A stretch of 64,000 bases of DNA from Rathayibacter sp. VKM Ac-2857. GTDB lineage: Bacteria; Actinomycetota; Actinomycetes; Actinomycetales; Microbacteriaceae. Where the stretch lies: contig NZ_JABMLE010000002.1 in the NCBI RefSeq assembly GCF_013205025.1, positions 785,775-849,774 on the forward strand. The letters run 5' to 3'. A program made the position numbers and the translations under genes. Shown here piece after piece: positions 4,840-43,287 of the stretch. Below the pieces are notes generated by a model. It did not search any database and had not been told where the DNA came from. It saw only the letters and a program-made list of their open reading frames with translations. The first letter of the stretch is position 1. Every line of letters starts with the position of its first letter.

Positions 4840-4850
4840 CACCACCCCTC

Positions 4851-4882: not shown

Positions 4883-4905
4883 GTCCGTTCCCAGGAGACA
4901 GGCCC

Positions 4906-7190: not shown

Positions 7191-7198
7191 CCGGGTCC

Positions 7199-7272: not shown

Positions 7273-7276
7273 GAGC

Positions 7277-8305: not shown

Positions 8306-8350
8306 GCCGAAGCCCCCGTCTCCCCTTGCCGCTCTGCGGTCGAGGTGACA

Positions 8351-8389
8351 GTATCGACATTCGATACGAAACGCACGTCTTTCGATACG
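8351..8389. promoter_or_regulatory. Candidate operator in a divergent promoter region
   Basis: A perfect palindrome, GTATCGA-CAT-TCGATAC (8351-8367), is followed by another TTCGATACG half-site ending at 8389, between divergent genes. The HTH regulator at 8896-9147 is a natural candidate to bind it. This is inferred from symmetry and position only. Confidence 0.4.
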
Positions 8390-8431
8390 CGCCCCGCTCG
8401 ACACGCACCCGTCACGACCCAGGAGCCCCGC

Positions 8432-8896: not shown

Positions 8897-9147
8897 TGGC
8901 GATCGTCCTGCACCTCGACGTCGAGCTCGCCAAGCGCAAGATGTCGGTGACCGACCTCGCCGCGGCGGTCGGCATCACCACCGCGAACATCTCGATCCTC
9001 AAGAACGGCCGCGCCAAGGCCGTCCGCTTCTCCACCCTCGACGCGATCTGCGCGGTCCTCGACTGCCAGCCCGGCGACATCCTCAGCCACGTCCCCGACG
9101 AGGAGGGGAGCGATGCCGTACTCGTCGGAAGCGATGCGGACGGCTGA
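8896..9147 (+). CDS. Small XRE/YozG-like helix-turn-helix regulator
   Basis: An 83-aa DNA-binding protein. Nearly all of it is one HTH domain: MSVTDLAAAVGITTANISIL is followed by the recognition-helix tail KNGRAKAVRFSTLDAIC and the CQPGDIL ending typical of YozG-type regulators. It is translationally coupled to the DUF2975 gene (TGATG overlap). It probably controls its own operon, possibly through the GTATCGA palindrome upstream of that gene. Confidence 0.85.
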   Translation: MAIVLHLDVELAKRKMSVTDLAAAVGITTANISILKNGRAKAVRFSTLDAICAVLDCQPGDILSHVPDEEGSDAVLVGSDADG

Positions 9148-9784
9148 TCGGAGGCTCCCGCCGGGCGAGCGGGTCCTGGCGGCGGGCGTCGTGCAGCTGG
9201 TGGTCGTCGTCGTCCTCGCCGTCCTCGGGCCGCTCGCGCCGACCTACGGGCTGCTCGGCGCCGACCGGGGGGAGGCGCTGTGGTGGGGCACGATCGTCCT
9301 CGGGGACACCGTGCCGACGGTCCTCGGGATCGAGCTGGTCCTCCTCGCGAGCGGCTGCCTCACCGCTCTCGTCGGCGTCTGCCTGCCGTGGACGCAGCGG
9401 ACTCCGTCGACGACCCGGAGCGTCGTTTCGGGCGTGGCCGGTCTGGCCCTGGCGATCTGCGTCGTGTGCTCCGTCTTCTTCTCGCTCGTCTTCGCTTTCA
9501 GCGCCTACCAGGTGCTCCCCGGCGCGAGCGGCTCGGGCTGCCGCCTCGTCGTGCGGGAGTCCGCTTTCCTCCTCCTGGCCGACGGCGCGATCGGCGTGCT
9601 CCGCCCCGGGTCGGCGGTCGTCGAGTGGCAGGAGGACTACTCCGCGGACGACGGCCACGCGCCGTTCAGCGCGGACGACTACGAGCTGCGGTGGAGCGGG
9701 GACGTGGCGCAGCTGCGGCTGGGGATGAAGCGGATCCAGCCCGTGTGGCTCGAGGGTGACGGCCTGCTCGACTGCTCGCGCTGA
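9113..9784 (+). CDS. Membrane protein with extracytoplasmic C-terminal domain
   Basis: A 223-aa hypothetical protein. Three or four membrane segments in residues 20-130 are followed by a soluble domain of about 90 aa with paired cysteines (SGCRLVV and the C-terminal LLDCSR). The start lies inside the HTH gene (35-bp overlap) but has its own GAGGGG site, so it belongs to the same operon. No family recognised. Confidence 0.6.
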   Translation: MPYSSEAMRTADRRLPPGERVLAAGVVQLVVVVVLAVLGPLAPTYGLLGADRGEALWWGTIVLGDTVPTVLGIELVLLASGCLTALVGVCLPWTQRTPSTTRSVVSGVAGLALAICVVCSVFFSLVFAFSAYQVLPGASGSGCRLVVRESAFLLLADGAIGVLRPGSAVVEWQEDYSADDGHAPFSADDYELRWSGDVAQLRLGMKRIQPVWLEGDGLLDCSR

Positions 9785-9920
9785 GAGCGCTCCCTCCAGA
9801 CCCCTCGAAGGGGGACATGGTGCGCGCTCGATCGTCTCGGCGCCGTAACAGCCGCGCAACACGAGGCTCCGAGACTGGGGAGGCTCCAAGCCCCCTCCCA
9901 CTCGATCCGAAGGTTGTCGC

Positions 9921-11861
9921 TTGTCCACCACCCCCTCGTTCCGGAGGGTCGCCCGACTCTCCGCCGCCACCGCCCTGTGCACCGGACTCGCACTCGGCAC
10001 CGCCCTCGCCGCCCCCGCGGCGCTCGGCGCGACCACTCCCCCCGTCGACGTGGCCGCCCCCGCGGTCGTCGACCTGAGCATCACCGACGCCCTGGCGCTC
10101 CTGCAGTCCGGCGCGACGACGTCCGTCGCCCTGACCCAGCGCTACCTCGACCGTATCGCGGCCTACGACGACCCCTACGGCGACCAGCCCGGACTCGCCG
10201 CCGTCATCCTGGCCAACCCGGACGCGCTCGCCACCGCGGCCGAGCTCGATGCCGAGCGCGCGGCCGGCTCGATCCGCGGACCGCTGCACGGCATCCCGAT
10301 CCTGGTGAAGGACAACTACGCCACATTCGACATGCCCACCACCGCGGGCAGCGCCTCCCTGCACACGTACCAGACGAAGCTCGACTCGACGGCCGTGCAG
10401 CGCCTGCGCGACGCCGGCGCGATCATCCTCGCGAAGACCAACATGGCCGAGTTCGCCTGGCACGGCACCTACACGCTCAGCTCCGAGCGCGGCCGGACCA
10501 ACAACCCCTACAACCAGGCGAACAGCGCCAGCGGCTCGAGCGGAGGCACCGGCGCGGCCGTCGCCGCCGGCTACGCTCCCGCGGGCCTCGGCACCGACAC
10601 CTGCGGCTCGATCGTCGGACCGAGCGCGCACCAGAGCCTCGTCGGCTACCGGCCGACCATGGGCCTGACCAGCGTCACGGGCATCGTCCCGCTGTCGCCG
10701 CGCCAGGACGTGTCGGGCCCGATGACGACGACCGTCACCGACGCGGCCCTGCTGATGGAGGTGCTGGCCGGCTACGACCCGACCGACCCGCTGACCGTCA
10801 TCGCGGACCAGCAGGACAGCTCGACCTACGTCGAGGGGCTCAGCGACACCGCGCTCGAGGGCAAGCGCATCGGCTACGTGCAGTGGGACTACGAGGAGGA
10901 CCCGGCCCGCCCGGGCCTCGCCGAGACCATTGGACTCGTCGACCAGGCCGTCCGCGATCTGGCGGCGCAGGGCGCCGAGATCGTGCCGGTGCCGACCTTC
11001 ACCCGCGAGTTCGTGTCGGAGACGCTCGTCAGCGGCGGCTACCTCGACATGCGCCCGAGCATCGACAAGTTCTTCGCGGACACCGACGCGACCTGGCCCG
11101 AGGGCCTCGCCGGACTGACGGAACCGGCCGACGCGCTGACCTTCTCGGACGTCATGGCGGACGGGAAGACCTCGCTGCTGCCCGGCGACGTGGACTTCTT
11201 CAACAGCAACGCGGACATCCCGAACCCCGAGTACGACGCGGCGATCGCGGCCCAGGACGCGGGCAAGCTCGCGATGGACCAGTTCTTCCTCGACAACGAC
11301 CTCGACGCCCTGGCGATGCCGACCAGCGCGACGGCGGCGACCCCCGACTGGGCGGGCACGACGTTCTGCGACGTCGGCGCGAACACCGGGGTGCCGACGG
11401 TCTCGCTGCCCGCGGGCTTCACCTCGACCGGGACGGCCGCCGGCCTCGAGCTGGCCGCCCCGCGTAGCCAAGACGCAGCGCTGCTGGCGATGTCGTACGA
11501 CTACGAGCAGGCGACACTGAACCGCGTCGCCCCGGCGTCGACCCCGGAGCTGGCCGCCGCGCCGACTCCGGAGCCGACGGCCACGCCGACCGCGCCGCCG
11601 GTCGGGCCGACGGCGGAGCCCACCGTGGCGCCGACTGCTGAGCCGACCGTGGCGCCGACCGCTGTGCCGACCGCGACCGCCGGGCCCGTCGCTCCGGCGC
11701 CGACCGCAACGCCGAAGCCCACGGCGAAGCCCTCCGCATCGCTCGCGCACACCGGCGCCGAGGGCACGACGGGCCTGGCCGCGCTGGCCTTCGCCCTGAT
11801 CGCCGGCGGCGCGGGCGCTCTCGCGCTCACCGCGACGCGCAGGCGCACCGCCCAGAAGTAA
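9921..11861 (+). CDS. Secreted, sortase-anchored amidase (amidase signature family)
   Basis: A 646-aa amide hydrolase. Signal peptide at residues 1-36, then an amidase-signature domain of about 460 aa with the catalytic lysine in ILVKDNYAT and the serine/glycine motif SGSSGGTGAAVA followed by DTCGSIVGPS (usually DTGGSIR; a cysteine replaces one glycine here). A Pro/Thr-rich spacer with VAPTAEPT repeats follows. The C-terminus is LAHTG, a hydrophobic segment and a basic tail, the class E sortase (LAxTG) sorting signal. It is therefore surface-attached. Start is TTG. The natural substrate cannot be read from sequence. Confidence 0.85.
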   Translation: MSTTPSFRRVARLSAATALCTGLALGTALAAPAALGATTPPVDVAAPAVVDLSITDALALLQSGATTSVALTQRYLDRIAAYDDPYGDQPGLAAVILANPDALATAAELDAERAAGSIRGPLHGIPILVKDNYATFDMPTTAGSASLHTYQTKLDSTAVQRLRDAGAIILAKTNMAEFAWHGTYTLSSERGRTNNPYNQANSASGSSGGTGAAVAAGYAPAGLGTDTCGSIVGPSAHQSLVGYRPTMGLTSVTGIVPLSPRQDVSGPMTTTVTDAALLMEVLAGYDPTDPLTVIADQQDSSTYVEGLSDTALEGKRIGYVQWDYEEDPARPGLAETIGLVDQAVRDLAAQGAEIVPVPTFTREFVSETLVSGGYLDMRPSIDKFFADTDATWPEGLAGLTEPADALTFSDVMADGKTSLLPGDVDFFNSNADIPNPEYDAAIAAQDAGKLAMDQFFLDNDLDALAMPTSATAATPDWAGTTFCDVGANTGVPTVSLPAGFTSTGTAAGLELAAPRSQDAALLAMSYDYEQATLNRVAPASTPELAAAPTPEPTATPTAPPVGPTAEPTVAPTAEPTVAPTAVPTATAGPVAPAPTATPKPTAKPSASLAHTGAEGTTGLAALAFALIAGGAGALALTATRRRTAQK

Positions 11862-25919: not shown

Positions 25920-25962
25920 AAAATATATTCCCCTACTCGACTTGCTTAAGGAGCGCGGATCT

Positions 25963-27846
25963 ATGACAGACGCCATAACCGAAAAGTCCCTCAACGACGA
26001 GGAAAACATGTCGCAGCTTCAGGAACGAATTGCAGAACTTCTGTCGGAACTATCGGATGCCGCCGATTCCCCCAAAGGAGTAAGCGCCACCTCACGATTT
26101 GCGCCCGAAGACGTGCGGTTCGACTCTGACTCATGGATGGCCCGTCTCATTGAGGTCCAGGGCTGGCTCAGGCTGGCCGAAGATCTTCCGACAACCGGAC
26201 CGCATGACCTGCTAAGTAGTCTTGCCGCGAGCCTCGGTTTTGAAGATGAGTCCGAGGCAATCGAGTACCACGGCACGACGCCAAGCTTGAGCAACACCGC
26301 GCTGGAGCGACTAAGCGCAAGGTCAGAGTTAGCCGCGCGTCTTCAACAAGTATTTTTCGCGAACTTAGATGCTGACGGCGGGACGCGGACCTCCGCTACC
26401 ACCTACTGGGATGAAGCTTGGGTTGCGCGTGAAGACGATGAGGAGACGATCGATTCCGAGCCCGTCACAGCAAAAGCCGATGTCTGGCACATCTTCACCC
26501 TGACGAAAAAGAAGCTAAATTTGACTCCGTCATATCAACGCGGAGACGTCTGGCGAATCAGCGATCGGCAGGCCTTGATTGAATCGATTCTGCGAGGAAT
26601 TCCTCTTCCTTCAATCATCCTTCTCCGAACGGGCGGCACTGCGCCGAACGACGTCGTCGACGGAAAGCAAAGGCTGACAAGCATTCTACGGTTCGTGGGG
26701 CTCCATCCCAGAGCACTCGAGAAGGTTGGCCAACTCGATCGAGACTTCCCTGACGCAGGCTTCGCGAGCCTCTTCCACAACGACTACCCAAAGTTCCGAG
26801 CGGCATGGAAAAATGCAATGATCTACCCACTTACCGCGAAACTTGAAGACGACTTCTATTTCCCGTTCAAGCTGCGAAGTGACGCCAATGGCGGCCTCGT
26901 CGGCACCGATCTGGAACCGTTACGCGGCAAGTACTTCACGCAGATAAAGGACAGCACAATCAAGGTTGCCGACCAAGAGGTGACCGTCGATGACCTCTTC
27001 GGCGGAGCTCCGGACTATAAGGTGCCCGTCATTGAATACACCAAGGCCACGCAACGCCAGATTCACGAAGTTTTCAAGCTATACAACAAGCAGGGCATGC
27101 ACCTAAATGCCGAGGAAATTCGCAACGCTGTTTATCACGACATCGAACTCACTCGCGCGATTCTGGTTGCTGCCGGTGACGCTAGTTCGCAAAGTAAGAT
27201 CGCGGATGTAGCCCCCTCGCTTATGAATGTGCCCAATATTGAGGACCTTGGTACAACGCTCTCCGAATACGGGTTTGGCGAAGCAAGATATCGGCGAACT
27301 AAGGTGTTGGGCTGGATCGTTGCAACACTGGTTTGCGACTCGAATGGCAAGCTTTTGCCTTCGACCTCGCGCCACACGGATCAGCTTCTCAGCCAGGTGC
27401 AAGAAAAGCCGGACCACCCGCTTCGCAGTTCTGTACGGATCGCCGATCTCTTCGGCCTCATATCACAAGCCGCCGACCTGCACGCCTCGTACGGGGAGCT
27501 TTGGCCGGATGCGTTCAAAGGTGATGGGAAGTCATCAAAATGGCAAGATCTACAGTTAGTCGGGTCACTAGTAGGAATTGCTGTGGCGCTCGCGGGGTCA
27601 CCTGATGACATCGAGGCTAGGATAGTGCAGCACGCGAAGGCAATACGCGAAGCTGCGCCGACGGAGTGGAAGCGTCCCGAGAAAACTCAGACTCGTTCGC
27701 AGTGGCAATACATTGCGAAACTTGTCGAGGGGATTAACGAGACGCTTGGAGTCGATCTCACCACGGCTTCTAATTCAATGCGCGCACGCTTTGGATCCTC
27801 CGGAATCGAGTCGCTTCTCGGTTCTGCTCAGAAAATTGCTAAGTAG
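25963..27846 (+). CDS. DUF262 (ParB-like/GmrS-like) domain protein
   Basis: A 627-aa protein. N-terminal part of about 160 aa, starting with a predicted coiled coil (SQLQERIAELLSELSDA). A DUF262 domain follows at about 175-420 with the diagnostic PSYQRGDVWR, LIESILRGIPLPSIIL and DVVDGKQRLTSILRFV motifs, the last being the nucleotide-handling DGxQR. No DUF1524 HNH half follows, so it is not a complete GmrSD enzyme. Reading frame and spacing (9 bp before the Z1 gene) place it in the methyltransferase operon. TAAGGAG precedes the ATG. Confidence 0.85.
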   Translation: MTDAITEKSLNDEENMSQLQERIAELLSELSDAADSPKGVSATSRFAPEDVRFDSDSWMARLIEVQGWLRLAEDLPTTGPHDLLSSLAASLGFEDESEAIEYHGTTPSLSNTALERLSARSELAARLQQVFFANLDADGGTRTSATTYWDEAWVAREDDEETIDSEPVTAKADVWHIFTLTKKKLNLTPSYQRGDVWRISDRQALIESILRGIPLPSIILLRTGGTAPNDVVDGKQRLTSILRFVGLHPRALEKVGQLDRDFPDAGFASLFHNDYPKFRAAWKNAMIYPLTAKLEDDFYFPFKLRSDANGGLVGTDLEPLRGKYFTQIKDSTIKVADQEVTVDDLFGGAPDYKVPVIEYTKATQRQIHEVFKLYNKQGMHLNAEEIRNAVYHDIELTRAILVAAGDASSQSKIADVAPSLMNVPNIEDLGTTLSEYGFGEARYRRTKVLGWIVATLVCDSNGKLLPSTSRHTDQLLSQVQEKPDHPLRSSVRIADLFGLISQAADLHASYGELWPDAFKGDGKSSKWQDLQLVGSLVGIAVALAGSPDDIEARIVQHAKAIREAAPTEWKRPEKTQTRSQWQYIAKLVEGINETLGVDLTTASNSMRARFGSSGIESLLGSAQKIAK

Positions 27847-32083: not shown

Positions 32084-32491
32084 TCAATGCACCGCGACGA
32101 AGACCAGGCCCGACGCGAGCAGGAACGCGAGGACGGCGACCACTGTCCCGGTCGCGGGGATCCACCAGATCCGACGCGACCTGTTCGGTCGGACGAGTGC
32201 GACGACCGTCACGAGGAAGGTCAGGGCGACGACTCCGGGGACGAGCACGGTCGTCGTGCTCAGGAGCCCGTAGTCGCATTCGCCCGGGGCTCCGCCGCAC
32301 CGATCCATCGCCAGCTGCTCGACCAGGACGAAGAAGGACAGGACGACACCGAGGACCAGCAGGAGGACGAGCAGCAGGATCGCGGTCACGCGGTCCGCCC
32401 GAGCGGGGAGTCCTCGGCGGGGCGGCGGCGGAGGTGCCCACCGATCGAACGGGTCCCCTTCGCCCCAGTCCGAATCCGAGTCGAAGGCCAT
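32084..32491 (-). CDS. Small membrane protein at the end of the tubulin-like operon
   Basis: A 135-aa protein. Acidic, proline-rich cytoplasmic N-terminus (DSDSDWGEGDPFDRWAPPPP), then three or four membrane segments with a short cysteine-containing loop (MDRCGGAPGECDYG). No family recognised. It lies 64 bp downstream of the HNH gene on the same strand and may be the last gene of that operon. An in-frame TTG at 32503 is an alternative start. Confidence 0.6.
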   Translation of the reverse strand: MAFDSDSDWGEGDPFDRWAPPPPPRRGLPARADRVTAILLLVLLLVLGVVLSFFVLVEQLAMDRCGGAPGECDYGLLSTTTVLVPGVVALTFLVTVVALVRPNRSRRIWWIPATGTVVAVLAFLLASGLVFVAVH

Positions 32492-32555
32492 GATGCCGCT
32501 CAAGATAGCGGAGCAGGGCGGCTGAGCATCGTCGGTCGCAGGGCACCAGTGCGGG

Positions 32556-33461
32556 TCAGCACCCAGCCAGCACGGCTTCCGCCGCCTCCCGGTCCTCCGC
32601 CCCGACCGCCAGCCCGTACCCGCCCAGCACCCCGACGAACTGCTCCACGTACCCGCAGCGCAGCTCCGGGGCCGGCGGCAGCCACTCCCCCGGGCCGGCG
32701 TCGCTCTTGGACTGGTTCGTGTCGTCCGAGGCGGCGACGAGGTTCGCCGGGTCGTTCGCGAACGTCAGGCGCTGCTCGTCCGTCCACGCCCACGCGCCGT
32801 GGTGCCAGGCCCAGCCGAGGGCGACGACGTGGTCGATCTGCACGAGCCGGGACGTGTCGCTCCCGGAGACGAACGACACCGCGGTGCCGTCGTACGGGTC
32901 GACCAGGGTGCCGGAGAGGACCTTGCAGTCGCGGGTACCGGCCTTGAAGACCGGGTCGAGCAGGTCGCGGCCGAGGACGTCGTTGCGGGTGTCGCAGCCG
33001 TTGCGGTCGACGTCCTTCCAGGACTCGCCGAAGAGGTCGCGGTCGTAGGGGACGTCGGCGCGGCCGTCGTCCACGGGCAGCGCGGCGAGGGTCGCCAGTG
33101 CGAGGGCGGCGGGGTCGGCGGAGTTCGCCGTCGGTGACGCGGCGACGGACCCGGACACGGTCGGCGCGCTCGCGGCGGACGGAGTGTCCGTCGCAGGAGC
33201 GGCCGAAGCAGGAGCGGTCGACGCAGGTCCAGCATCGGCGCCGGACGACGCAGACCCCGCCCCCGGCACCCCCACCGTCTCCCCCGCGCCCACCACCGCG
33301 AACGCGACCGCAGCCACACCGACGGCAGCCACGATCCACGCCCACCACGGCGTCCGCCGCACCCGCCGGTACCGGGCCGGAGCCCCCGGACGCCCAGCAC
33401 CGCGCCCCGGAACCGCCCGCCGCACCGCGGGAGGCCGCGGCGGCGGCGGCCTGCCGACCAC
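32556..33461 (-). CDS. Membrane-tethered HNH nuclease (DUF1524 / GmrSD C-terminal type)
   Basis: A 301-aa protein. Basic proline-rich N-terminus, one membrane segment (WWAWIVAAVGVAAVAFAVVG, about 38-57), a Ser/Ala/Pro linker to about 115, then an exported HNH domain. Catalytic region LVQIDHVVALGWAWHHGA (DH motif), the NLVAASDDTNQSKSDAGPGE asparagine/histidine-metal segment and WLPP. Such DUF1524 domains are found in secreted nucleases. GTG start 3 bp after the upstream 1045-aa protein gene, so it is part of the operon. It probably degrades extracellular DNA. Confidence 0.82.
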   Translation of the reverse strand: MVGRPPPPRPPAVRRAVPGRGAGRPGAPARYRRVRRTPWWAWIVAAVGVAAVAFAVVGAGETVGVPGAGSASSGADAGPASTAPASAAPATDTPSAASAPTVSGSVAASPTANSADPAALALATLAALPVDDGRADVPYDRDLFGESWKDVDRNGCDTRNDVLGRDLLDPVFKAGTRDCKVLSGTLVDPYDGTAVSFVSGSDTSRLVQIDHVVALGWAWHHGAWAWTDEQRLTFANDPANLVAASDDTNQSKSDAGPGEWLPPAPELRCGYVEQFVGVLGGYGLAVGAEDREAAEAVLAGC

Positions 33462-33464
33462 CGA

Positions 33465-36400
33465 CTACACCCCCGAGTCGCCGTCAGCCGGGACGGCGGG
33501 CGCCGAAGCCCGCACCGCCCCGTCCCACAGCCGGATCGCCGCACGCGGCACCGGTCCGACGACGTCCACCCGCCACACCAGATCCACCGGCGACCCGGTC
33601 GACGCCTCGAACGGCACCACGTGGATGGGCGCGGACGGGTCGAACCGCAGCCGCTCCTGCAGCCGCGACGGTGCGACGAGGAAGCTCGTCACACGCTCGT
33701 GGTAGCGCTCGCCCACCTGCAGCTCGGTCAGCACCGTGGCGCTCACCGGGGTCATCGGGTCGGCGCGGGTCAGCGAGTCGAGCAGGAAGTCGTCCCACGG
33801 CACGTCGAGCTCGACGCCCTCGAAGTCCTCGGGGCGGCGCAGCGCGTTCAGCGGATTCGTGCCCATCGGGCGGACCCGCGGGCGGGCGATCGCCTCCTCG
33901 TCGCGCTGCACGGAGGCGACGATGTCGGCCAGGCGCGGGGCGGCGATCCGGGTGAGCAGCGACTCGTCGTCGAGGGCCCGCAGCAGCATCCGCCGGGTGT
34001 GGTTCGACGAGTGCGGGAGGTCCTCGTCCAGCGCCGACAGGCCGAAGCCCTGGCCGGCTCCGTAGTCCGCGGCCATCTCCTGCACGAGCGACTCGAAGGC
34101 CTCGTGCCGCCAGCCGCGGCGGACGAGCTTGGACGTCATCGCGGCGCGCATGCGGGCCACCGCCGCCGTCTCCTCGCCGCTGACGGTCGCGAGGCGCACG
34201 GCGAACGGCATGGCGCCGCGCTCGACGTCGAAGGTCTCGTGCTGCGTCCACACGGGCGGCACGTGCCACGGCCGGTGCACGGCCTTGGACAGCAGCACCA
34301 GCCACTCGACGGCCTGGCGGTGCACCGAGCGCAGGCGCGCGGCCTCCTCGCGGGCGCGGCGGGCGCTGCGGCCGTAGTGCGCGAGGCGGGTGCGCTCGAG
34401 CTGGATCCGCCGCTCGAAGCGCGACCAGCCGGCGTGGTACCGGACGAGCGAGACCAGCGTGATCAGCACTCCGGCGCCGGCCAGGCCGACCAGCACCCAC
34501 AAGAGCACAGAGGTGATCAGCCCGGGATCGAAGGAACCGTCAGCCTGCCGCGAGGCGTAGTCGTTGACGAACCAGATGCCGACGCCGACCACGATCGCGA
34601 GCGCCAGCACGGTGACCCAGCCGACGAGCAACGTGCGGTGGAACTCGCGGCGCAGGCCCAGCAGCTCGCCGGGGCGCTGGGGGCGGATCGCGTCGATCTC
34701 GCCCTTGAGGTACGCGACCTCGTCCTCGGCGCGGCGGCGCTCGGCGCCGATCCGGTCGAGGAAGCGCCAGACGAACGAGGAGCTCTGCCGGCCGGCCCAG
34801 AGGTCGTACTCGCCGAGCGCCTGCAGGCGGCCGGAGCGGCGCGCCTCGGCGTCGGAGGCGGAGACGGGCGGCTCCGCGGGCTCGGGAGCCTCCTCCGCGG
34901 GGACCTCGATCTGCACGACGGTCCGCGGCTCGGCGGCCTCGCCCTCGACGAGCGTCTCCTGCGCGGGCGGCGCGAACGCGGCGGAGTCGGAGGGCTGGTC
35001 CGAGGGCTCCGGAGCGACCGGCGCCTCAGCCGAAGAGACCTCCGGTACCGAGGCCGCAGCAGCCGCCGCCTCCGACGCCGACACCCAGTTCTGCAGCCTC
35101 TCCCGCGGATCCGCGAGCGCCAGCGCGTACCAGTCGACCCGCTCCGGGAACCCCGGCGGCACGTCGTACCCGCTCGACACCCACGGGTCGTCCGGCAGCG
35201 CGAGCACGTCGCCCACGCGCCCGAACACGGGCACGGCCCCCTCGACGGGCGCGAAGCCCGCGTCGCGGAGGTCGGCGCTGCCGTCGAGCGCGCCGAAGAC
35301 CAGCTCGCGCAGGCCCGCCCAGAGCTGCGGCGTCGTGCGGACGTGCGCCATCGCGGCGGGCGCGTCGGCCTCGGCGCGGGCGCGACCCTCGTCCTCGCGC
35401 AGGTGCTCGAGGTCGGCGACGAGGAGCCGGTCGCGGACGTCCAGGACCTCGTCGTAGTCGGCCCCGACGACGGCCGAGCCCTGCGAGGTGTGCAGGGCGC
35501 GGGTCACCGAGCGGTTCGCGCTCGAGGTGATCCAGAGCACGGCCCAGCGCGGGATCTGCACGAGCTTGCCGGCCGAGAAGGCGAAGAAGCGGCCGATCTG
35601 CGCCCAGAAGCCGATCCGCTCGGGCTCCGGCACGTCGAGCGAGCCGGCGGAGTCGTAGGTGAGCGCGCCACCGTCCAGGCGCAGGGCACCGGCGACCATG
35701 CTGTCGACGTAGCCGGCGATCTGGCCGTCGTCGATGTAGGCGGTGCCGGGCGGCGGCGGACTGACGCTCGGGTCGATCAGCAGCGAGTCCGGGCGGGCGG
35801 CGTTCTCGAGCACCCCGGCGGCGACGCGGCGGCCGAGCGACTCGGTCAGCACCGCGTTGAGGAACACCCGCGAGATCCAGACGGAGTCGCCGCCGTCGGA
35901 CTCGCGGCTCATCAGCTCGACGCTGCCGTCGGTGACGCCGTTCCACAGCCCGGCGACGCTCGCCAGGTGGGTGAGCGTGAAGCCGGTGAAGCGCTCGTCG
36001 TCGCGGACGAAGGCGTCGCCGGACCACGGGCTCGAGCGGTCCTCGGGCGAGGCGATGACGACGAAGCCGTGCTCGTGCGCCTCCACCCGCTCACGCAGCT
36101 GGAACGCGGTCGGCGCGCAGATCAGCGTGACCCGGCGGAGCTCCGTGGTCTGGTCGGCGAGGGTCGCCGACGGATTGGGCAGCGGCATCGAGGTGCGCAC
36201 CCAGCGGCTGACGAGGTCGGCGACCGCGTCCTGCGCCTCGTCGGTCTCGCGCTCGGGCAGCGCGGAGCGGAGGGTGACCAGGCGGACGAGGGCGAGCGGC
36301 TCCTCCGCGAGCGCCTCGAACAGGTCGACCGCGATCGCGACGGACTCGAGGTCGGCGCCCACGCCGAGCACCACGGCCTCGATCTGCGGCGGCGCGTAGG

Positions 36401-36602
36401 GCGAGGTCTTGACGTGCTCGGGCAGCACCCAGAGGGCCTGGCCGAGCAGGCCGGTCTTCGTCCACTGCGCCGCCAGCTCGAGCAGGGTCTCGCCCTGCGC
36501 GCCGCTGGGCAGCAGGACGATCGCCGCCTTGCCGTCGGGCCAGAAGCCGGCGTGCCCGTAGCCGGCGTGCCCGTAGCCGTCCGGGCGAGTCTCCGGGGGC
36601 AC
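33465..36602 (-). CDS. Large two-TM protein of the tubulin-like operon
   Basis: A 1045-aa protein with no family I recognise. Residues 1-510 form an alpha/beta region with repeated GYGHAG near the start. About 520-575 is an acidic Pro/Ala linker. A coiled coil (RRRAEDEVAYLKGEIDAI) precedes two membrane helices at about 650-675 and 690-715. A second coiled coil (ERRIQLERTRLAHYGRSARR) and a 300-aa C-terminal domain follow. It starts at GTG 2 bp after the tubulin-like stop. Probably anchors or regulates the tubulin-like protein at the membrane (inference from operon and topology). Confidence 0.7.
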   Translation of the reverse strand: MPPETRPDGYGHAGYGHAGFWPDGKAAIVLLPSGAQGETLLELAAQWTKTGLLGQALWVLPEHVKTSPYAPPQIEAVVLGVGADLESVAIAVDLFEALAEEPLALVRLVTLRSALPERETDEAQDAVADLVSRWVRTSMPLPNPSATLADQTTELRRVTLICAPTAFQLRERVEAHEHGFVVIASPEDRSSPWSGDAFVRDDERFTGFTLTHLASVAGLWNGVTDGSVELMSRESDGGDSVWISRVFLNAVLTESLGRRVAAGVLENAARPDSLLIDPSVSPPPPGTAYIDDGQIAGYVDSMVAGALRLDGGALTYDSAGSLDVPEPERIGFWAQIGRFFAFSAGKLVQIPRWAVLWITSSANRSVTRALHTSQGSAVVGADYDEVLDVRDRLLVADLEHLREDEGRARAEADAPAAMAHVRTTPQLWAGLRELVFGALDGSADLRDAGFAPVEGAVPVFGRVGDVLALPDDPWVSSGYDVPPGFPERVDWYALALADPRERLQNWVSASEAAAAAASVPEVSSAEAPVAPEPSDQPSDSAAFAPPAQETLVEGEAAEPRTVVQIEVPAEEAPEPAEPPVSASDAEARRSGRLQALGEYDLWAGRQSSSFVWRFLDRIGAERRRAEDEVAYLKGEIDAIRPQRPGELLGLRREFHRTLLVGWVTVLALAIVVGVGIWFVNDYASRQADGSFDPGLITSVLLWVLVGLAGAGVLITLVSLVRYHAGWSRFERRIQLERTRLAHYGRSARRAREEAARLRSVHRQAVEWLVLLSKAVHRPWHVPPVWTQHETFDVERGAMPFAVRLATVSGEETAAVARMRAAMTSKLVRRGWRHEAFESLVQEMAADYGAGQGFGLSALDEDLPHSSNHTRRMLLRALDDESLLTRIAAPRLADIVASVQRDEEAIARPRVRPMGTNPLNALRRPEDFEGVELDVPWDDFLLDSLTRADPMTPVSATVLTELQVGERYHERVTSFLVAPSRLQERLRFDPSAPIHVVPFEASTGSPVDLVWRVDVVGPVPRAAIRLWDGAVRASAPAVPADGDSGV

Positions 36603-36604
36603 GC

Positions 36605-39600
36605 TCAGACTCCGGAGTCGCGCGGACCGGTCGAGACGACCGACGACACCAGGCCGAGCAGCGCCTCGCGGAACTGCTCGCGCATCTCCCAGGTCACCGG
36701 GTAGTCGTAGACCGAGACCATGTCGTCCTGCAGCACGATGTCGCTGTCGAAGCGGGCGATCTCGGCGGTCAGGTAGGCCTGCACGGCGGAGCGGCGCGAC
36801 GCGAGGTCGCCGTCCGCACTGCCGGCGCGGGACGACTCCGGCACTGGGGCGCCGGCCGGCAGCGCGCCGGTCTGCAGCCACTCGGCCAGGTCGGTGTCCT
36901 CGTCGCGACGCCCGAGCGACATCAGCACCCGGTAGGCGGCGAGCGGCGCCAGCGTCCCGTCGACGTTGCAGAGCGCCATCGCGATGGCGAGCGACTGCAG
37001 CACGACGCCGGGGAAGTCGGCGGGGCGGGCGTTGCGCTCGCTCAGCAGCGGGTGCGGGAAGTCCGCGAGCGCGCGGGTCGACGGGTCCCAGACGGAGAGC
37101 TTGGGGCCCTTCTCGCCCTGCGAGCCGTCGACGGCGAGGCGGCCGAGCGCCTTGGCGACGTACCAGCCGCGGATCATCGACTCGATCGCGCGCGGGTCGG
37201 CCGGGATGCTCTCGCCGAGCAGGCGGGCGCGCTTGAACTTCCAGAACGCCTCGCGGCTGTCCTGGGTGTTCGACTGCGCGAGCCAGCCGCGGGCGATCGG
37301 CTCCATCACGGAGTCCATCACGATGGGCTCGTAGGGGAAGCCGGACATCGCGAAGACCTCGATGCCGTCGACCTTCTGGTCCTGGAACCACGACTCGCTG
37401 GTCGCGTCGTCCCAGACGCCCATCTGGCCGAGCACGCCCTTGGTCACCTCGTACATCTCGGTGCCGGCGCGGAACGGGATCGAGCTGAAGACCAGCGAGG
37501 TGTCCTCGTTGATCGCCTTGCCGTGCACCGCGCGCAGCAGCGCCGGGTTGAGCTTGACCAGCGGCTCGCTCGCGCCGAGGGCGGCCTGGAGCTGCTCGCG
37601 GTAGCGGTCGCGGCGGGCGGCGAAGACGTCGGGCGGCAGCACCTCGGAGTCGAAGAAGCCGAGCAGGTCCTCGCCGATGTAGGCGGCGAACGGCGTGCCG
37701 TCGCGCTTCATCCAGGCGCGGGCGCGGCCGACGTAGACCTCGGGGTCGGTCGCGAGCTCGAAGGAGGCGCGCTGAGCCGGGTTGGCGACGGCCGGGTCCG
37801 CGGTGACGGTCGGCTTCCAGGTGCGCGGGTTGCCGACGAGCGACCAGGCGCCCGCGTCCGACTCGCTGTCCGGGCTGACGCCGACGAGCTGGTCGGCGAG
37901 CACGCGCAGGACGGCGTCCTGGTACTTGGCGTCGCCGTCGACGGAGGCGCGCACCAGCTTCTGGAACTCGGCCGGGTACTTCTCCGGCTCGACGAGCATC
38001 CGCTCGTTCGGCGCGGGCGAGTACTTGCGCGGCACGGTCTCGTCGACGCGGCGGGGCCAGAACTCGTAGGCGTTCTCGCGGTCGTCGCTGGTCTTGCGGG
38101 AGTGCACGCGCTGCAGCAGCGCGGTGCGCGAGCCGTCGAGGTAGTCGGCGAGCGGGCCGAGGAAGGTCTCGCGCAGCTCGGCGAGCAGCGCCCACGCGGA
38201 GTCGCGCAGGGCGGCCTCGGAGGACCACTCGAGCGCCTGGCCGAGGCGCTGGATGGCGAACTGCACCGCCTCCTGGTCCGGACGGATCGACTGCTGGTTG
38301 GCCGAGGTGCGCAGCTCGTCCGAGACGAGCGAGCTGAGGGTGCCCACCCACTCCTCGTGCTGGCGGGCCTCGACGCGCAGGGCGTCGACGGTGCCCTTGA
38401 GGCCGCGCTCGAGGCGGCGGAGCATCGCGGTGACGACCGGCAGGCCGTCCTGGGCGACGTAGCGCGAGACGGTCTCGAGGATGTGTCCGGGCATCGTGCG
38501 CGTCCACTCGTCGAGGCGGCGCTGGCGGGCCTCGCGATCGCGCTGGAGCAGGCGCGGGCTGTGCCGGGTGAACTCGTTGACGAGGCGGTCGGTCCAGGTG
38601 GTGATGTCGGTGCCGCCCTGGCGGTCGAGCGACTCGGGGCGGGCCAGCTCGTCGTCGGCGCCGCGCTGCAGCTCGGCCTTGATCAGGTCGAGGGTGCTCT
38701 GATCGCGCAGCGCGTCGGTGACGTCGTTGTGCTCGGCGGTCTCCTCGTTCAGGCGCAGCTCGCGGAGGAAGCGCTGGTACTCGCTGTCGGACGCCTTCTT
38801 GATGTACTCCGACTCGGTCATCCGCTCGAACTGCGGGTCCTCCTCGGCGTGCGCGAAGAGCATCCGGTCGATCGCGGAGCGGGCGAAGCGCTCGGCGGAG
38901 TACTCCAGGAAGCGCTCGCGGCCGAGGGTGACCCGGCCGAAGCCGATCGAGGAGAACGGCGGCGAGTGGTGCGCCGGGCTCATCAGGCCGGAGTTGTCGG
39001 GCAGCACGTTCGCGGCCGAGCGGGCCTGCCAGTTGCCGGACGAGTAGGCGATCATGTCGTCCTGCACGCGCTCGTCGATCATCCACGCGGTGAGGCTGGT
39101 GGCGACGGCGTCGTAGACGGCGTTCTGGTCCTCGAAGGTGACCTTGCTGTTGCTGCGGCCGACGATGAAGGGGTACGCGGCGCCGACGCGGTCCATCGCG
39201 GCGCCGTAGGAGGGCGCGACGCCCTTGGTGCGCAGCAGCTCGAGGGTCGCGGCGGAGGGGGTGTCGGTCCAGAAGCCGTTCATCGTCTCGGAGATCGCGG
39301 CGAGCGCGTTGCCGGGCATGCCGGCGGTGACCGAGAGCTGATCGAAGACGTCGGGCGCGTAGAGCATGCTGAAGAACTGGTTCGACCACGGGTACTGCTT
39401 CGCGGTCGACTTGATGATCTCGATGATGTCGAGGAACTGGCCGGCTCCCGAGCCGCCGGCGACCGACGAGATCACGATGACGATCGGGCTGCCGTCTCCG
39501 CCGTCGTCGCGGGCGCGCAGGCGCTGGCCGAGGGTCTGCAGCTCGGCGAGCGACTCCGCGTCGTTCATCTTGCCGATCGCGAGGCGCGCGGCCTGGGCGA

Positions 39601-40003
39601 TCTCCTTGGTGGCGGCGAGCGCGACGGCGCGGCCGACGGCGCGGTACTGACCGGCGCCCTTGGTCACGTCGACCTTGACCAGGCGCGGGTCGGGCAGCTG
39701 GCGCTCGATGTCGTGGCGCATCGCGTTGTTGGTCGCGTGGGCGCTCGTGATCGAGCCGTGCACGATGTCGAAGGTCGCCGCGGTGCTGACCAGGCCGCGG
39801 TAGTCCTGCCGGGGCAGGAACGGCGCCTGGTACTCCATGCCGTCCTGGACGGTGGGGGTGTCGAAGTGCAGGAAGCGCCAGGCGGCGGGGATGCCGCCCT
39901 CCCAGCCGAGCTGCTGGAGCTTGAGCTCGAGCTGGTACTTGATGCCGCGGAGGGTCTTGCCGCCGGAGCCGCCGACTCCGATCAGGAGGAAGGGTCTGAG
40001 CAT
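36605..40003 (-). CDS. Tubulin-like protein (Tubulin_2 type), 1132 aa
   Basis: A very large cytosolic GTPase-like protein. Residues 1-450 carry the tubulin/FtsZ-like fold. An N-terminal glycine loop LLIGVGGSGGKTLRG (7-21) binds nucleotide as in FtsZ. The tubulin signature SSVAGGSGAGQFLDI is at 179-193 (GGTGTG-like), followed by NQFFSMLYAPDVF and an FtsZ-like GNALAAISETMNGF. The C-terminal 650 aa are all-helical and family-specific. About three times the size of FtsZ. It sits between a vWA gene (85 bp upstream) and a two-TM protein gene. Whether it polymerises is unknown. Confidence 0.85.
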   Translation of the reverse strand: MLRPFLLIGVGGSGGKTLRGIKYQLELKLQQLGWEGGIPAAWRFLHFDTPTVQDGMEYQAPFLPRQDYRGLVSTAATFDIVHGSITSAHATNNAMRHDIERQLPDPRLVKVDVTKGAGQYRAVGRAVALAATKEIAQAARLAIGKMNDAESLAELQTLGQRLRARDDGGDGSPIVIVISSVAGGSGAGQFLDIIEIIKSTAKQYPWSNQFFSMLYAPDVFDQLSVTAGMPGNALAAISETMNGFWTDTPSAATLELLRTKGVAPSYGAAMDRVGAAYPFIVGRSNSKVTFEDQNAVYDAVATSLTAWMIDERVQDDMIAYSSGNWQARSAANVLPDNSGLMSPAHHSPPFSSIGFGRVTLGRERFLEYSAERFARSAIDRMLFAHAEEDPQFERMTESEYIKKASDSEYQRFLRELRLNEETAEHNDVTDALRDQSTLDLIKAELQRGADDELARPESLDRQGGTDITTWTDRLVNEFTRHSPRLLQRDREARQRRLDEWTRTMPGHILETVSRYVAQDGLPVVTAMLRRLERGLKGTVDALRVEARQHEEWVGTLSSLVSDELRTSANQQSIRPDQEAVQFAIQRLGQALEWSSEAALRDSAWALLAELRETFLGPLADYLDGSRTALLQRVHSRKTSDDRENAYEFWPRRVDETVPRKYSPAPNERMLVEPEKYPAEFQKLVRASVDGDAKYQDAVLRVLADQLVGVSPDSESDAGAWSLVGNPRTWKPTVTADPAVANPAQRASFELATDPEVYVGRARAWMKRDGTPFAAYIGEDLLGFFDSEVLPPDVFAARRDRYREQLQAALGASEPLVKLNPALLRAVHGKAINEDTSLVFSSIPFRAGTEMYEVTKGVLGQMGVWDDATSESWFQDQKVDGIEVFAMSGFPYEPIVMDSVMEPIARGWLAQSNTQDSREAFWKFKRARLLGESIPADPRAIESMIRGWYVAKALGRLAVDGSQGEKGPKLSVWDPSTRALADFPHPLLSERNARPADFPGVVLQSLAIAMALCNVDGTLAPLAAYRVLMSLGRRDEDTDLAEWLQTGALPAGAPVPESSRAGSADGDLASRRSAVQAYLTAEIARFDSDIVLQDDMVSVYDYPVTWEMREQFREALLGLVSSVVSTGPRDSGV

Positions 40004-40087
40004 GAGGTCCTGCTTTCGTCTGGTCGCGCGGTGTTCCTGCGGTAGCGCGGTGTGTCGTGAGGCGTGTCTGAGTAGGGCGCGTCGCCG

Positions 40088-42898
40088 TCAGCGACTGCGG
40101 GGCGGAGGGGTGCGGGGTCCGGCGCGCCCGGGCGGCGGGGGCGGCGTGGACCCTCCCGGTCGCGGCGGCGGCGGTCCGCCGGGGCGGCCGGGCGAGCCCT
40201 GGGTCCGCGGGGGCGGGCCGCCGGGACGCGGCGGCGAGGAGGGGCGCGGAGGCGTGGCCGTGGGGATGCCGTTCGTCGCGCCGCCCGAGGAGGCGCTCCG
40301 TGGCGGGACGGACGAGTGCGGCTCGGCGGCGGGCGCGGGCTGCTGGGGCTCCCTGGGCTCCGGTCGCTTCGCCGCGCGCTCGCGCCGCAGCCCCTCGACG
40401 GTCTTCCACGCCGGCTCGCCGGAGTCGCGGAGCAGGTCCTCGAGGCGGCGGTCGTACTGGCCCTCGTCGTCGCGGTCGACGCGGTGGTAGAGCACCGCCG
40501 TCGCGCGGACGGGCTCGTCCCCGCGGGGGCGCTCGAGCTCCTGCTCCGAGACGACGATCGCCCAGAAGACGTCGAGCGGAAGCGCCGTGAACTCGACGCC
40601 GCCGTTGCCGAGCGGGCGCCCGGCGGAGGTGCCGCGGGTGCCGGTGCGCGAGGCGATGATCACGCCGCCGGCGGGCGGGCCGACGCGGTAGCTCGGGGCC
40701 TTCAGCGGCCACCACGGCACGTGCGAGCGGAGCCGGCCGAGCTCGGGGTCGGGCAGCTCGCGCACGCCTTTCTCGCTGCGGAGGTAGCGGAAGCGCTCGT
40801 CGAGGCGGCCGCTGGTGAGCGCCGAGCGGACGCCCTCGGGCGTGATCTCGACCGGGAGGGTGCCGCGCTGGAACGAGCCCTCCATCGCGATCTTTGCCTT
40901 CGACCGGTTGAACAAGTACAGGCCGAGCAGCGGCAGGAGCACACCGAGCAGCAGGAGGACGAGCGCGACCAGTCCGATCGCCGCCGCGTTCACCGGGTAG
41001 GTCGAGGGGAACGAGAGCGCGACCGTCTGCGGGGCGCTGCTGCCGTCGCTCGTCCGGATGTCGAGGGGCAGGATCGCCGAGACCGTGGAGTCGGCGGGGG
41101 TGTCGTTCTCGGCGACGACGGTCAGCGCCGCGGAGGCGCCGGTCGCGACGACGACGCAGTCGCCGGGCAAGAGCGCCGTGCCGGTCGGTCCGACGAAGGT
41201 CCAGCGCCAGCCGCCGTCGCGGTCGGCGTTGTCGCTGGTGACGGTCGGGGCGGCGGTGAGGCAGACCTGGCCGTCGGTGCCGGCCGTGGGTCCCTGAATG
41301 GCGAGGGTGCCCTCCGCGCGGCCGTCGGCGCCGGTTAGCTCGCTGAGCACCAGCGGCGAGGCGACGCTCGGGAAGGCGGCGGGCAGCACGGTCGTGATCC
41401 GCTGCTGCGTGGTGACCGGTGCGAGCTCGATCGCGTGCTCGGCGGTGATCAGCGGCTCGAGCGAGGCGGTGACGAGCAGCTCGGAGGCGGTGACGTCGGA
41501 GGGCAGCGGGATCGTGATGACGCCGGAGGCCGCGTCGATCGCGGCACCCGGCAGGTCGGCGGTCGCGCCGTCGGCGGTGCTGGTCGCGGTGAAGTCCGCC
41601 TGCCCGAAGACGGAGAGGTCGACCGGCTGGCCGTCCGGGTCCTGGACGCGGGCGGTGAGGGCCGCGGAGAGCGTGCCGTCCTCACCGCGCTGCACCTGGT
41701 TGGCCTCGTCGAAGACGATCCGCAGGTCGCTGAACGCGAAGACCTCGGTGGTGCCGGGCGAGGTGAGCGTCCACTGCCCCTGCAGCTCGGGCCGGTCGAC
41801 GGTGATCTCGAGGCGCGAGACGCCGGAGGACTGCGTGACCGTCACCTCGGGGACTCCGGAGGAGGCGGAGATCGTGCCCAGGCCGGAGGCGGCGGGCGCC
41901 TGCAGCGTCCAGCCGTCCTTCACGACGGCCTGGATCCGCGCAACGCCGGGGTCGATCCAGAAGGAGCCGTTCGCGTCGAGCGCCTCGGACGCGCCGCCGG
42001 CGATGCGGGCGCCGAGCTGGAGGAAGACGGAGGCGAGCGCGTCGGGGTCGGAGGCGTCGACCACGGCCCCGCGGACGGAGCCCTCGGGCGCGACGGCCGG
42101 CCCGCAGGTCGCAGTGCCGCTCCCGTACGCCCCGCTGCCCTCGACGAGCGGCCACATCACGCGGGCCTCCTCGCGCTGCTCGCCGTCGGCCAGGAGCGTG
42201 CCGAGCACGACGACGCCGGCCTGGCGGAGCGCCGCGAGCAGGCCGTTGCCCTCGGGCTCGTCGCCGTCGGGGTCGATCCGGACACCGCAGAGCGCGTTGG
42301 TCGCGTCGGCGGTGGCCTGCGCGGAGCCGAGATCGATCTCGCCGTCGGTCAGCCAGATCACCAGCTGGCACGCGGAGCCGGCGCTCGGCTGGCTCTGCAG
42401 CGCGGTCTGCACGCCCTGCAGTCCGGCGAGCCAGTTGGTGCCGCCGCCGGGCGTCTTGTCGCGGATGACGCCGGCGAGCGCCTCCGGGCTGTCCTGCGCC
42501 CAGGGCCGCCAGTCGACGGCCGGCTCGAAGGCCCGGCTGAAGAAGGCGGCGCCCCAGTTGACGGTGAGCGAGTCGCGGAGGCCGCCGAGCTCCTGCAGGC
42601 TGCCTGCGAGGATGCCGGCCCGCGCGATGTCGGGGTCGGAGCCGCGGCCGTCGTCGCCGCCGGTGTTGAGGGAGCCGGAGCTGTCGACGAGGTAGTAGAC
42701 GTTGAGGACGTCGGAGGAGGAGAGGCAGGTGCGCAGGTCCTCGATCGCGCCGCGGCCGATGTCGGTGAGCGAGGCGGTGCTGGACGTGGTGCCGGTGGTC
42801 GCCGCGCTCGCGGGCTGCGCCGCCGCCCCGAGCCCGAGGGTGAGCAGGAGCGCGGTGACCGCGATCGCGAGGGCGCGGCGGATCACGTGCCGAGCCAC
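40088..42898 (-). CDS. Membrane-anchored von Willebrand factor A protein
   Basis: A 936-aa exported protein. Signal peptide at 1-32, a vWA domain at about 60-300 with MIDAS residues in YYLVDSSGSLN (72-76), GGGTNWLAGL and VIWLTDGEID, then three or four beta-sandwich domains to about 640. One membrane helix (AIGLVALVLLLLGVLLPLLGLYLF) follows, with a cytoplasmic region that ends in a long Pro/Gly/Arg-rich tail (PPPPRPGG type). The vWA faces outward and the tail inward, toward the tubulin-like protein. Its start overlaps the upstream small membrane gene by 16 bp. Confidence 0.85.
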   Translation of the reverse strand: MARHVIRRALAIAVTALLLTLGLGAAAQPASAATTGTTSSTASLTDIGRGAIEDLRTCLSSSDVLNVYYLVDSSGSLNTGGDDGRGSDPDIARAGILAGSLQELGGLRDSLTVNWGAAFFSRAFEPAVDWRPWAQDSPEALAGVIRDKTPGGGTNWLAGLQGVQTALQSQPSAGSACQLVIWLTDGEIDLGSAQATADATNALCGVRIDPDGDEPEGNGLLAALRQAGVVVLGTLLADGEQREEARVMWPLVEGSGAYGSGTATCGPAVAPEGSVRGAVVDASDPDALASVFLQLGARIAGGASEALDANGSFWIDPGVARIQAVVKDGWTLQAPAASGLGTISASSGVPEVTVTQSSGVSRLEITVDRPELQGQWTLTSPGTTEVFAFSDLRIVFDEANQVQRGEDGTLSAALTARVQDPDGQPVDLSVFGQADFTATSTADGATADLPGAAIDAASGVITIPLPSDVTASELLVTASLEPLITAEHAIELAPVTTQQRITTVLPAAFPSVASPLVLSELTGADGRAEGTLAIQGPTAGTDGQVCLTAAPTVTSDNADRDGGWRWTFVGPTGTALLPGDCVVVATGASAALTVVAENDTPADSTVSAILPLDIRTSDGSSAPQTVALSFPSTYPVNAAAIGLVALVLLLLGVLLPLLGLYLFNRSKAKIAMEGSFQRGTLPVEITPEGVRSALTSGRLDERFRYLRSEKGVRELPDPELGRLRSHVPWWPLKAPSYRVGPPAGGVIIASRTGTRGTSAGRPLGNGGVEFTALPLDVFWAIVVSEQELERPRGDEPVRATAVLYHRVDRDDEGQYDRRLEDLLRDSGEPAWKTVEGLRRERAAKRPEPREPQQPAPAAEPHSSVPPRSASSGGATNGIPTATPPRPSSPPRPGGPPPRTQGSPGRPGGPPPPRPGGSTPPPPPGRAGPRTPPPRSR

Positions 42899-43287
42899 TC
42901 GGAGATCGGCACGCTGATGTTGAGGACGTGCCAGGCGCCGAGGACGAGCGCGGCCGCCGACAGCCAGTAGAGGGCGCGGGTGAAGCGGGCGTCGGGCACG
43001 AAGCGGCGGGCGTCGCGGAGGGAGTGCGCGCGCTGGGAGGAGAGGTCCCAGCCGGTCGCGAGGAAGACGAGCAGCGGAGTCAGCAGGTAGCCGGCGACGC
43101 TCAGCCAGACGGCGCCGCCGCGCACCAGCGGCAGCGGCACCCCGAGCACGCGCACGGGCGCCGACGCGACGGAGGCGGCCACGACGGCCAGCACAAGGCT
43201 CACCACGAGCCCCGCGGCACCCACCGCGAGAGGCAGGATGCTGGCGGTTCGGCGGGCCGCGAGGGCCCGGTCACGCACGGTCGACAC
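42883..43287 (-). CDS. Small membrane protein, first gene of the tubulin-like operon
   Basis: A 134-aa protein with four hydrophobic segments, including ILPLAVGAAGLVVSLVLAVV and an AGYLLTPLLVFLATG stretch, and an intracellular SSQRAHSLRDARRF loop. The GTG at 43287 follows GGAGGGTGGAGCG. It has no recognised family but is translationally overlapped with the vWA gene, which supports a shared function. Confidence 0.65.
   Translation of the reverse strand: MSTVRDRALAARRTASILPLAVGAAGLVVSLVLAVVAASVASAPVRVLGVPLPLVRGGAVWLSVAGYLLTPLLVFLATGWDLSSQRAHSLRDARRFVPDARFTRALYWLSAAALVLGAWHVLNISVPISEWLGT

Follow-up and report, generated by a model that had tools for sequence, protein, structure and literature searches.

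Our analysis deals with an operon of Rathayibacter sp. VKM Ac-2857 that is built around a large tubulin-like protein and a membrane protein with a von Willebrand factor A (vWA) domain. It lies in a stretch of 64,000 nucleotides (contig NZ_JABMLE010000002.1, positions 785,775 to 849,774; this whole stretch is called the window below) in which an earlier note, made from the sequence alone, had described a six-gene operon. All six open reading frames (ORFs) are confirmed on the minus strand at the positions given there: five tightly packed genes, running from 43287 to 32556, encode in this order a small transmembrane (TM) protein, the vWA protein, the tubulin-like (Tubulin_2) protein, a partner of 1045 amino acids (aa) that we call p1045, and an HNH nuclease, and a sixth gene, for another small TM protein, follows on the same strand at 32084–32503. 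The junctions are a 16-bp overlap and then gaps of 84, 2, 3 and 52 bp; the overlap and the 2- and 3-bp gaps had been given correctly, but the 84-bp gap had been put at 85 bp. Judging by this spacing, most of the genes may be co-translated. The start codons of p1045 and of the nuclease are uncertain. The features, all on the minus strand, are as follows:

42883–43287 (minus): small membrane protein, 134 aa from a GTG at 43287 (the frame allows 157 aa)
40088–42898 (minus): vWA protein, 936 aa, with signal peptide, vWA domain, middle region, TM segment and cytoplasmic proline-rich tail
42344–42685 (minus): metal-ion-dependent adhesion site (MIDAS) region of the vWA protein, residues 72–185 (D72, S74, S76, T154, D185)
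40925–40981 (minus): strong TM segment of the vWA protein, residues 640–658, by hydropathy
36605–40003 (minus): Tubulin_2 (FtsZl1) protein, 1132 aa, no TM segment (PF13809)
38870–39988 (minus): Tubulin_2 domain, residues 6–378, by the PF13809 match
39953–39979 (minus): N-terminal glycine loop GVGGSGGKT, residues 9–17, by conserved residues
39440–39460 (minus): tubulin signature loop AGGSGAG, residues 182–188, by conserved residues
33465–36602 (minus): p1045, with large N- and C-terminal parts around a two-TM hairpin
34452–34631 (minus): the two TM segments of p1045, residues 658–717, by hydropathy
32556–33461 (minus): membrane-tethered HNH nuclease, 301 aa, with a TM segment (41–59), a linker, a GmrSD_C domain (157–286) and four cysteines
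32604–32993 (minus): HNH (GmrSD_C) domain of the nuclease (PF07510)
32084–32503 (minus): small three-TM protein, with a DUF6264 match below cut-off

The gene order is found again in records from Actinomycetes and Acidimicrobiia, a recurrence that places it far beyond chance. Our set comprises 107 loci, collected by way of the tubulin protein and deduplicated, with ten loci dropped as duplicates from the neighbourhood counts and all counts taken over loci with room for the gene in question; the models of the neighbours were built from the same loci that were counted, and p1045 was also tested genome-wide. The p1045 gene comes after the tubulin gene in 99/99 loci, the vWA gene comes before it in 95/98 (one of the misses, L024, is a distance artefact, the vWA gene being found there by another scan), and 88/95 have a small TM gene upstream of the vWA gene. 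In the genome-wide profile searches the tubulin protein is present in 15 of 99 relatives, and all 15 have a p1045 match as well, full-length except in genomes G014, where the contig ends, and G071, where it is in pieces on two contigs. Among the 84 tubulin-negative relatives there are one full-length orphan p1045 (G033) and two partial, weak matches. Co-occurrence of these partners had been named in the earlier note among the things to look for, and it holds in every tubulin-bearing relative. The orphan (locus L171, about 6813–10108) has a vWA2-like gene beside it and no tubulin gene nearby.

The operons fall into two types. In type A, which occurs in Mycobacterium, Rhodococcus, Gordonia, Nocardia, Williamsia and others, four more genes follow downstream, encoding an unknown protein, GAP1-N2/GAP1-M, a weak vWA-TerF-like protein (a second vWA-like protein, beside GAP1-N2 and the DO-GTPase) and a DO-GTPase. 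Type B ends after p1045 and has no GAP1; it occurs in the window, the Microbacteriaceae, Cellulosimicrobium, Georgenia, Occultella and Acidimicrobiia. The window operon belongs to type B, which is the smallest form seen, with four core genes and no GAP1 or GTPase genes. A tree of 81 tubulins (FastTree, duplicates and broken copies excluded, 8 cut-short loci left unlabelled) separates 42 of type A from 31 of type B by a single change with support 100, in a topology that is unrooted and carries a warning for long branches, and in which the label type B means no GAP1 in the available DNA with more than 8 kb of room.

A Pfam search finds no GAP1-N2 in the window operon or in its own genome; GAP1-N2 is present in 6/99 relatives, four of which (G004, G006, G080 and G091) have it on the same contig as a type-A tubulin and about 6 kb away, the other two being G021 and G040. 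Among the 12 type-B genomes, the window's own included, it occurs only in the Rathayibacter genome G006, which carries both types and has it beside its separate type-A tubulin (type-A operon at L031 and L219). There is no DO-GTPase in the window operon and none in its genome by PF19993, an absence that is less firm because this profile missed the DO-GTPases found after GAP1 in G004, G006 and G080 by a branch-specific model; its matches include one in G091, on a contig other than that of the tubulin, and two unlinked ones in the type-B genome G008. The genome of Corynebacterium glutamicum, taken as a control, matches PF13809, PF20013 and PF19993. Pfam detects no HRDC-FNIII protein among the six window proteins or the type-A proteins scanned. 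TerD genes lie upstream of type-A operons in L100–L102, L104–L106, L109, L112, L114, L123 and L133 (Nocardioides, Nocardiaceae, Gordonia); in Rathayibacter G004 and G006 (L218, L219) they follow the DO-GTPase.

Type B often has nearby a gene for a hydrolase, in most cases one predicted to be tethered to the membrane. In the window this is the HNH nuclease, which matches GmrSD_C (PF07510) with an E-value of 2.5e-13 and is its genome's single HNH gene of that family. An HNH gene is adjacent to the operon in 9/12 type-B genomes (G000, G003, G005, G006, G007, G008, G012, G020 and G072), which represent three genera and thus about three independent cases; in G059 it is not adjacent, and in G014 and G071 the contig ends at the operon. 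The same arrangement is seen in Clavibacter, Microbacterium, Cellulosimicrobium, Georgenia, Occultella and others. The slot is taken in Acidimicrobiia and a few metagenome-assembled genomes (MAGs) by a gene for a trypsin-like protease (L072, L090, L092, L093) or for a trypsin-HNH fusion (L087), which joins both enzyme types in one protein. Other genes in the slot encode a NYN protein (L064), an Excalibur protein (L070) and a protein with a lamin-tail match below cut-off (L095), and in L096, a divergent type-B locus, a TIR-WD40 protein without a TM segment stands at the end of a chain of 0–1 bp junctions. In total an HNH, trypsin or TIR match is found in 28/44 type-B loci (22 HNH including the fusion, 5 trypsin and 1 TIR, with a weak L070 trypsin match of 26 bits at 2.2 kb counted in) against 4/55 of type A, a comparison that favours type B because type A has genes of its own in the corresponding space and the available DNA often ends there. 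Three of the four type-A loci with an enzyme match are from Williamsia.

These enzymes share more than their position. A TM segment lies ahead of the catalytic part in 35/37 HNH, trypsin or fusion matches (six are duplicate stretches), the exceptions being a second copy in L019 and a copy in L216. The HNH proteins have four cysteines with spacings of 20–23, 86–90 and 32, except that the second L019 copy has three and the fusion has only the last two. In L019 (G005, 902–4922) three HNH matches stand in a row downstream of the core, with a small TM gene among them. The MAG locus L096 (1–23012) also has NB-ARC-TPR, WD40-repeat and RyR-domain genes flanking its tubulin operon.

The earlier note had pictured an envelope-spanning set, and hydropathy bears this out: the tubulin-like protein is predicted to be cytoplasmic, the vWA domain to face outward and the nuclease to be tethered at the surface. 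The nuclease has 11 lysines or arginines and no aspartate or glutamate in residues 1–40, ahead of its TM segment, and no lysine or arginine in residues 60–100; this excess of basic residues before the TM segment makes an outward-facing catalytic part most likely. The vWA protein has a signal peptide (5–23), a TM segment (640–658) and a weaker hydrophobic segment (219–237). It matches VWA_2 below the Pfam cut-off (E-value 0.0029), but 24 of 30 aligned family members match at E ≤ 0.01, and the family profile finds the vWA domains of TRAP proteins among the PDB sequences (E-value 3.4e-05). Residues D72, S74, S76, T154 and D185 are invariant in 30/30 aligned vWA proteins, and of these we take T154 and D185 to be MIDAS residues; the DxSxS motif of vWA domains is quoted in the text of PMC2875224. 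No FNIII domain is recognised in this protein, whose weak matches include Invasin_D3 (E-value 0.064) and TRIM3 (E-value 0.022), and the comparison of the vWA and vWA2 profiles gives an E-value of 0.016. The small TM families tm7, tm11 and tm12 are related (pairwise hhalign E-values 7.5e-05, 1.2e-05 and 6.1e-13); outside them, comparisons among the operon's family profiles give no hidden relation below an E-value of 0.01.

The 1132-aa protein is its genome's sole Tubulin_2 match, canonical FtsZ being a separate gene. PF13809 matches residues 6–378 with an E-value of 5.8e-39 and 134.8 bits against a curated cut-off of 27, and it is on this match that a tubulin fold is predicted. Both loops that the earlier note had picked out, GVGGSGGKT and AGGSGAG, are intact, and their glycines, whose loss in relatives was raised there as a point to check, are conserved: G9, G11, G12, G14, G15 and T17, like A182, G183, G184, G186 and G188, are invariant in 19/19 type-B tubulin proteins, the window's included. 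In a wider alignment of 62 tubulin proteins AGGxG is present in 62/62 and GxGG[S/A]GG in 42/62; of the other 20, four have a variant loop and 16 start at or after it because the gene caller, which clipped the start of many type-A tubulins, picked a late start. The description as a cytoskeletal GTPase went further than our comparisons do. An hhalign comparison with an FtsZ profile pairs the AGGSGAG loop with the GGGTGTG loop of FtsZ, at a non-significant E-value of 0.27 over 44 columns at the signature loop, in a weak test whose FtsZ alignment consists of 16 close relatives. This agrees with the view, expressed in the text of PMC9871819, that the history of Tubulin_2 is unlikely to be tied directly to that of FtsZ and tubulin. 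Against PDB sequences the tubulin profile finds mostly helical and designed helical proteins, weakly (best E-value 0.0011) and at positions 422–761. Among genomes of the class, the Tubulin_2 genes of L172–L176 and L178–L180 score weakly (27–56 bits) with the family's tubulin model and belong to a different branch; near three of them there is a weak DO-GTPase match.

In p1045 hydropathy gives two strong TM segments (658–676 and 699–717) and a weaker one (74–92). Most of its relatives have two, and those in L072, L074, L086, L087, L090–L093 and L098 have four to six. It has no Pfam match, and its profile finds only helical and designed helical proteins among PDB sequences (best E-value 0.00063). 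In four loci (L072, L074, L089 and L187) it is split over two consecutive ORFs, which suggests two separable parts.

Within Rathayibacter the distribution is patchy, a type A or B operon being present in 9/15 genomes. In G003, G005 and G008 the operon has flanking DNA in common with the window. The site is empty in G002, where only about 180 bp separate the flanks that are found at about 17.6 kb and 43.6 kb in the window. We reject co-mobility with the restriction-like island (24–32 kb), since G003, G005 and G008 have the operon but lack the island at this site. The ratio of nonsynonymous to synonymous substitution rates (Ka/Ks) is 0.10–0.40 for the first five genes in five Rathayibacter comparisons, and higher (0.32–0.78) against Clavibacter and L065. 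In L025 (G006) identity to the window's proteins is 90% for the tubulin and 96–97% for p1045, and the tubulin's Ka/Ks, 0.32, is higher; recombination is a possible cause of this contrast. Records named Planococcus (L065) and Bifidobacterium breve (L085) carry type-B genes, and L065 groups with Microbacterium in the tree; both records are probably mislabelled or contaminated. The sixth gene is present in only L019, L020 and L025 of 15 loci checked, all Rathayibacter, and in 3/5 Rathayibacter comparisons, where its Ka/Ks of 0.37–0.58 is the highest of the set. On these grounds we reject it as a member: it is probably not part of the tubulin-vWA system.

The reading that we put forward, tentatively and with a probability of about 0.42, is that the type-B tubulin-vWA system is a membrane-spanning conflict or surveillance machine that lacks the DO-GTPase/GAP1 switch and has its output at the cell surface. 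Gene order and its conservation, the predicted topology, the two lineages and the recurrent tethered hydrolase nearby come from computation; from them we infer the function, including nucleotide binding, polymerisation, the contacts among the proteins, what is sensed and what is attacked. The outward vWA region may sense or grip something at the cell surface, and its TM segment and proline-rich tail may carry the signal into the cytoplasm. There the Tubulin_2 protein would bind nucleotide and assemble at the membrane through the two-TM p1045, and the assembly would gather or activate an outward membrane-tethered hydrolase. In the window this is the HNH nuclease, which might attack incoming DNA (a phage genome or a plasmid) before it enters the cytoplasm. 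The chain would run from sensor to scaffold to output and cross the membrane twice, from the outer vWA domain to the tubulin and most of p1045 in the cytoplasm and back out to the tethered enzyme. A constant core with a swapped enzyme is a pattern similar to that of the conflict systems described in the text of PMC7159879, where a conflict role is proposed for the type-A set (GAP1-N2, DO-GTPase and second vWA-like protein), and we count that proposal in favour of a conflict role here. Unlikely as a whole is a more far-reaching form of this idea, in which type B is an ancient, unrecognised envelope defence. Its tubulin-like NTPase, through a membrane link with an outward vWA sensor, would direct surface-tethered hydrolases that can replace one another, with no GTPase switch, and the nuclease or protease would destroy the DNA or proteins of invaders before entry.

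Several observations weigh against a conflict role. In the Rathayibacter genomes compared the operon occupies one chromosomal site, unlike a mobile defence gene, and the similarity of its tubulin to FtsZ is, as stated, not significant. No enzyme of the kinds counted lies near 16/44 type-B loci, and the count in the others comes from loci that are not independent and from HNH and trypsin models partly built from those same loci, besides the tilt of the A/B comparison noted above. Genes of the same HNH family occur in 81/99 relatives. Part of the HNH gene (48–316 bases) matches plasmids of Curtobacterium, Citricoccus, Rhodococcus fascians and others, several of the matches being annotated HNH/DUF1524, and the rest of the operon has no plasmid match among the matches listed (H3–H12); since the family is common and the plasmid matches are confined to the HNH part, the adjacency may be loose. 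A search with the tubulin protein gives two divergent plasmid matches, both in Rhodococcus and on large replicons, and no match in the phage search. Genes in or after the slot include such unrelated-looking neighbours as UPF0114, DUF2269, ribosomal protein L13 and uracil-DNA glycosylase. PADLOC reports for the six proteins only PD-T4-6, at an E-value of 0.013 and over nuclease residues 32–107, outside the catalytic domain. A PHROGs search gives zero matches for any of the six.

Of the other explanations, a membrane-remodelling or vesicle machine is doubtful. Tubulin-like filaments would bend or organise the membrane, the vWA protein would be a surface anchor and the nuclease an accessory or a bystander; family and vWA partner are the same as in the operons for which remodelling was proposed (PMC2875224, main text), and a conserved core under purifying selection at one site is what a housekeeping device would show. 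Against this explanation, the system is found in only 15/99 relatives, Pfam recognises no membrane-bending domain, hydrolases recur beside the operon, and the vWA and tubulin proteins are on opposite sides of the membrane, as a reviewer remarks in the published text of the same paper. In a further explanation, the machine would have no part in conflict and would control an exported nuclease or protease that serves nutrition, DNA uptake, the handling of biofilm DNA or the processing of surface proteins. N-terminal TM segments anchor the enzymes, the nucleases have conserved cysteines, the vWA domain with its MIDAS is predicted to be outside too, and the nuclease of the type-A locus L101 has an Excalibur domain; but the enzyme may be of either type, nuclease or protease, and many loci lack it, and the TIR-WD40 member without a TM segment fits poorly, so that we consider this explanation unlikely. 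We prefer a conflict role because it accounts better for the swapping of enzymes and for the TIR member. Quite improbable is an unrelated nuclease beside a four-gene unit with a cytoplasmic role: the HNH gene is downstream, upstream divergent, upstream codirectional or downstream convergent according to genus and is absent in many, but its presence at different places around one operon suggests that the two have become associated repeatedly, and genomes with one to three copies have one adjacent in nine of the 12 type-B cases, while in two of the remaining three the contig breaks off at the operon.

Predictions of the FtsZl1-vWA family date back to 2010, and the literature searched, as far as its texts go, yielded no experiment on it. 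The type-B operon, with a minimal core and a nuclease of readable activity side by side, makes the choice among remodelling, conflict and surface-enzyme control easier to test, and G006, with both types, allows their comparison in one genome. If the conflict reading is true, this would be a tubulin-like cytoskeleton used for defence at the cell surface.

The core and the family are already known, and the assembly has more precedent than the earlier note supposed: the association of FtsZl1 with vWA was published in 2010 by Makarova and Koonin, whose main text proposes membrane remodelling (PMC2875224), and an actinobacterial tubulin-vWA operon with GAP1 and DO-GTPase was described by Kaur et al. 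in 2020, with a conflict role proposed (PMC7159879, main text). The window operon resembles the FtsZl1 operons in its N-terminal Tubulin_2 domain, long C-terminal part, vWA neighbour, membrane proteins and separate FtsZ, and the actinobacteria form a clade there. P-loop GTPase, kinase and OmpA-like neighbours, frequent though not universal in that account, are not found by Pfam among the six window proteins, and a partner like p1045 and a tethered hydrolase are not described in its main text, additional files aside. The GAP1-free sister class and its tethered nuclease or protease were not found in the literature searched, supplements aside, although type-B loci may well be among the operons of PMC2875224 or listed in supplements.

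The second account (PMC7159879, main text) places the type-A relatives among nucleoside triphosphate-dependent conflict systems with a constant core and variable effectors. Type A fits its GAP1-N2/DO-GTPase branch, and the window shares with that branch a membrane vWA protein and a single tubulin that is long on its C-terminal side; it lacks GAP1-N2 and, in the operon, a DO-GTPase, and where type A has its four downstream genes it has an HNH gene. Another conflict system of that paper, 'System 3', combines trypsin with a NucA-type HNH nuclease; as in the slot described here, an HNH-superfamily nuclease and a trypsin are fused or adjacent, several with a TM segment, but the HNH family of the window is GmrSD_C and it stands beside a tubulin-vWA core. 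The GmrSD restriction enzymes share the GmrSD_C match of the nuclease domain, whereas the window nuclease has, in place of GmrSD_N, a TM anchor and cysteines. There is a gene with GmrSD_N at 25942–27846, in the neighbouring island, on the other strand and in a separate gene set. Zorya type II is a membrane-embedded machine with an HNH nuclease, in which the motor is MotAB-like and the nuclease cytoplasmic; going by that general description, its likeness to the type-B operon is that of a membrane machine beside an HNH nuclease.

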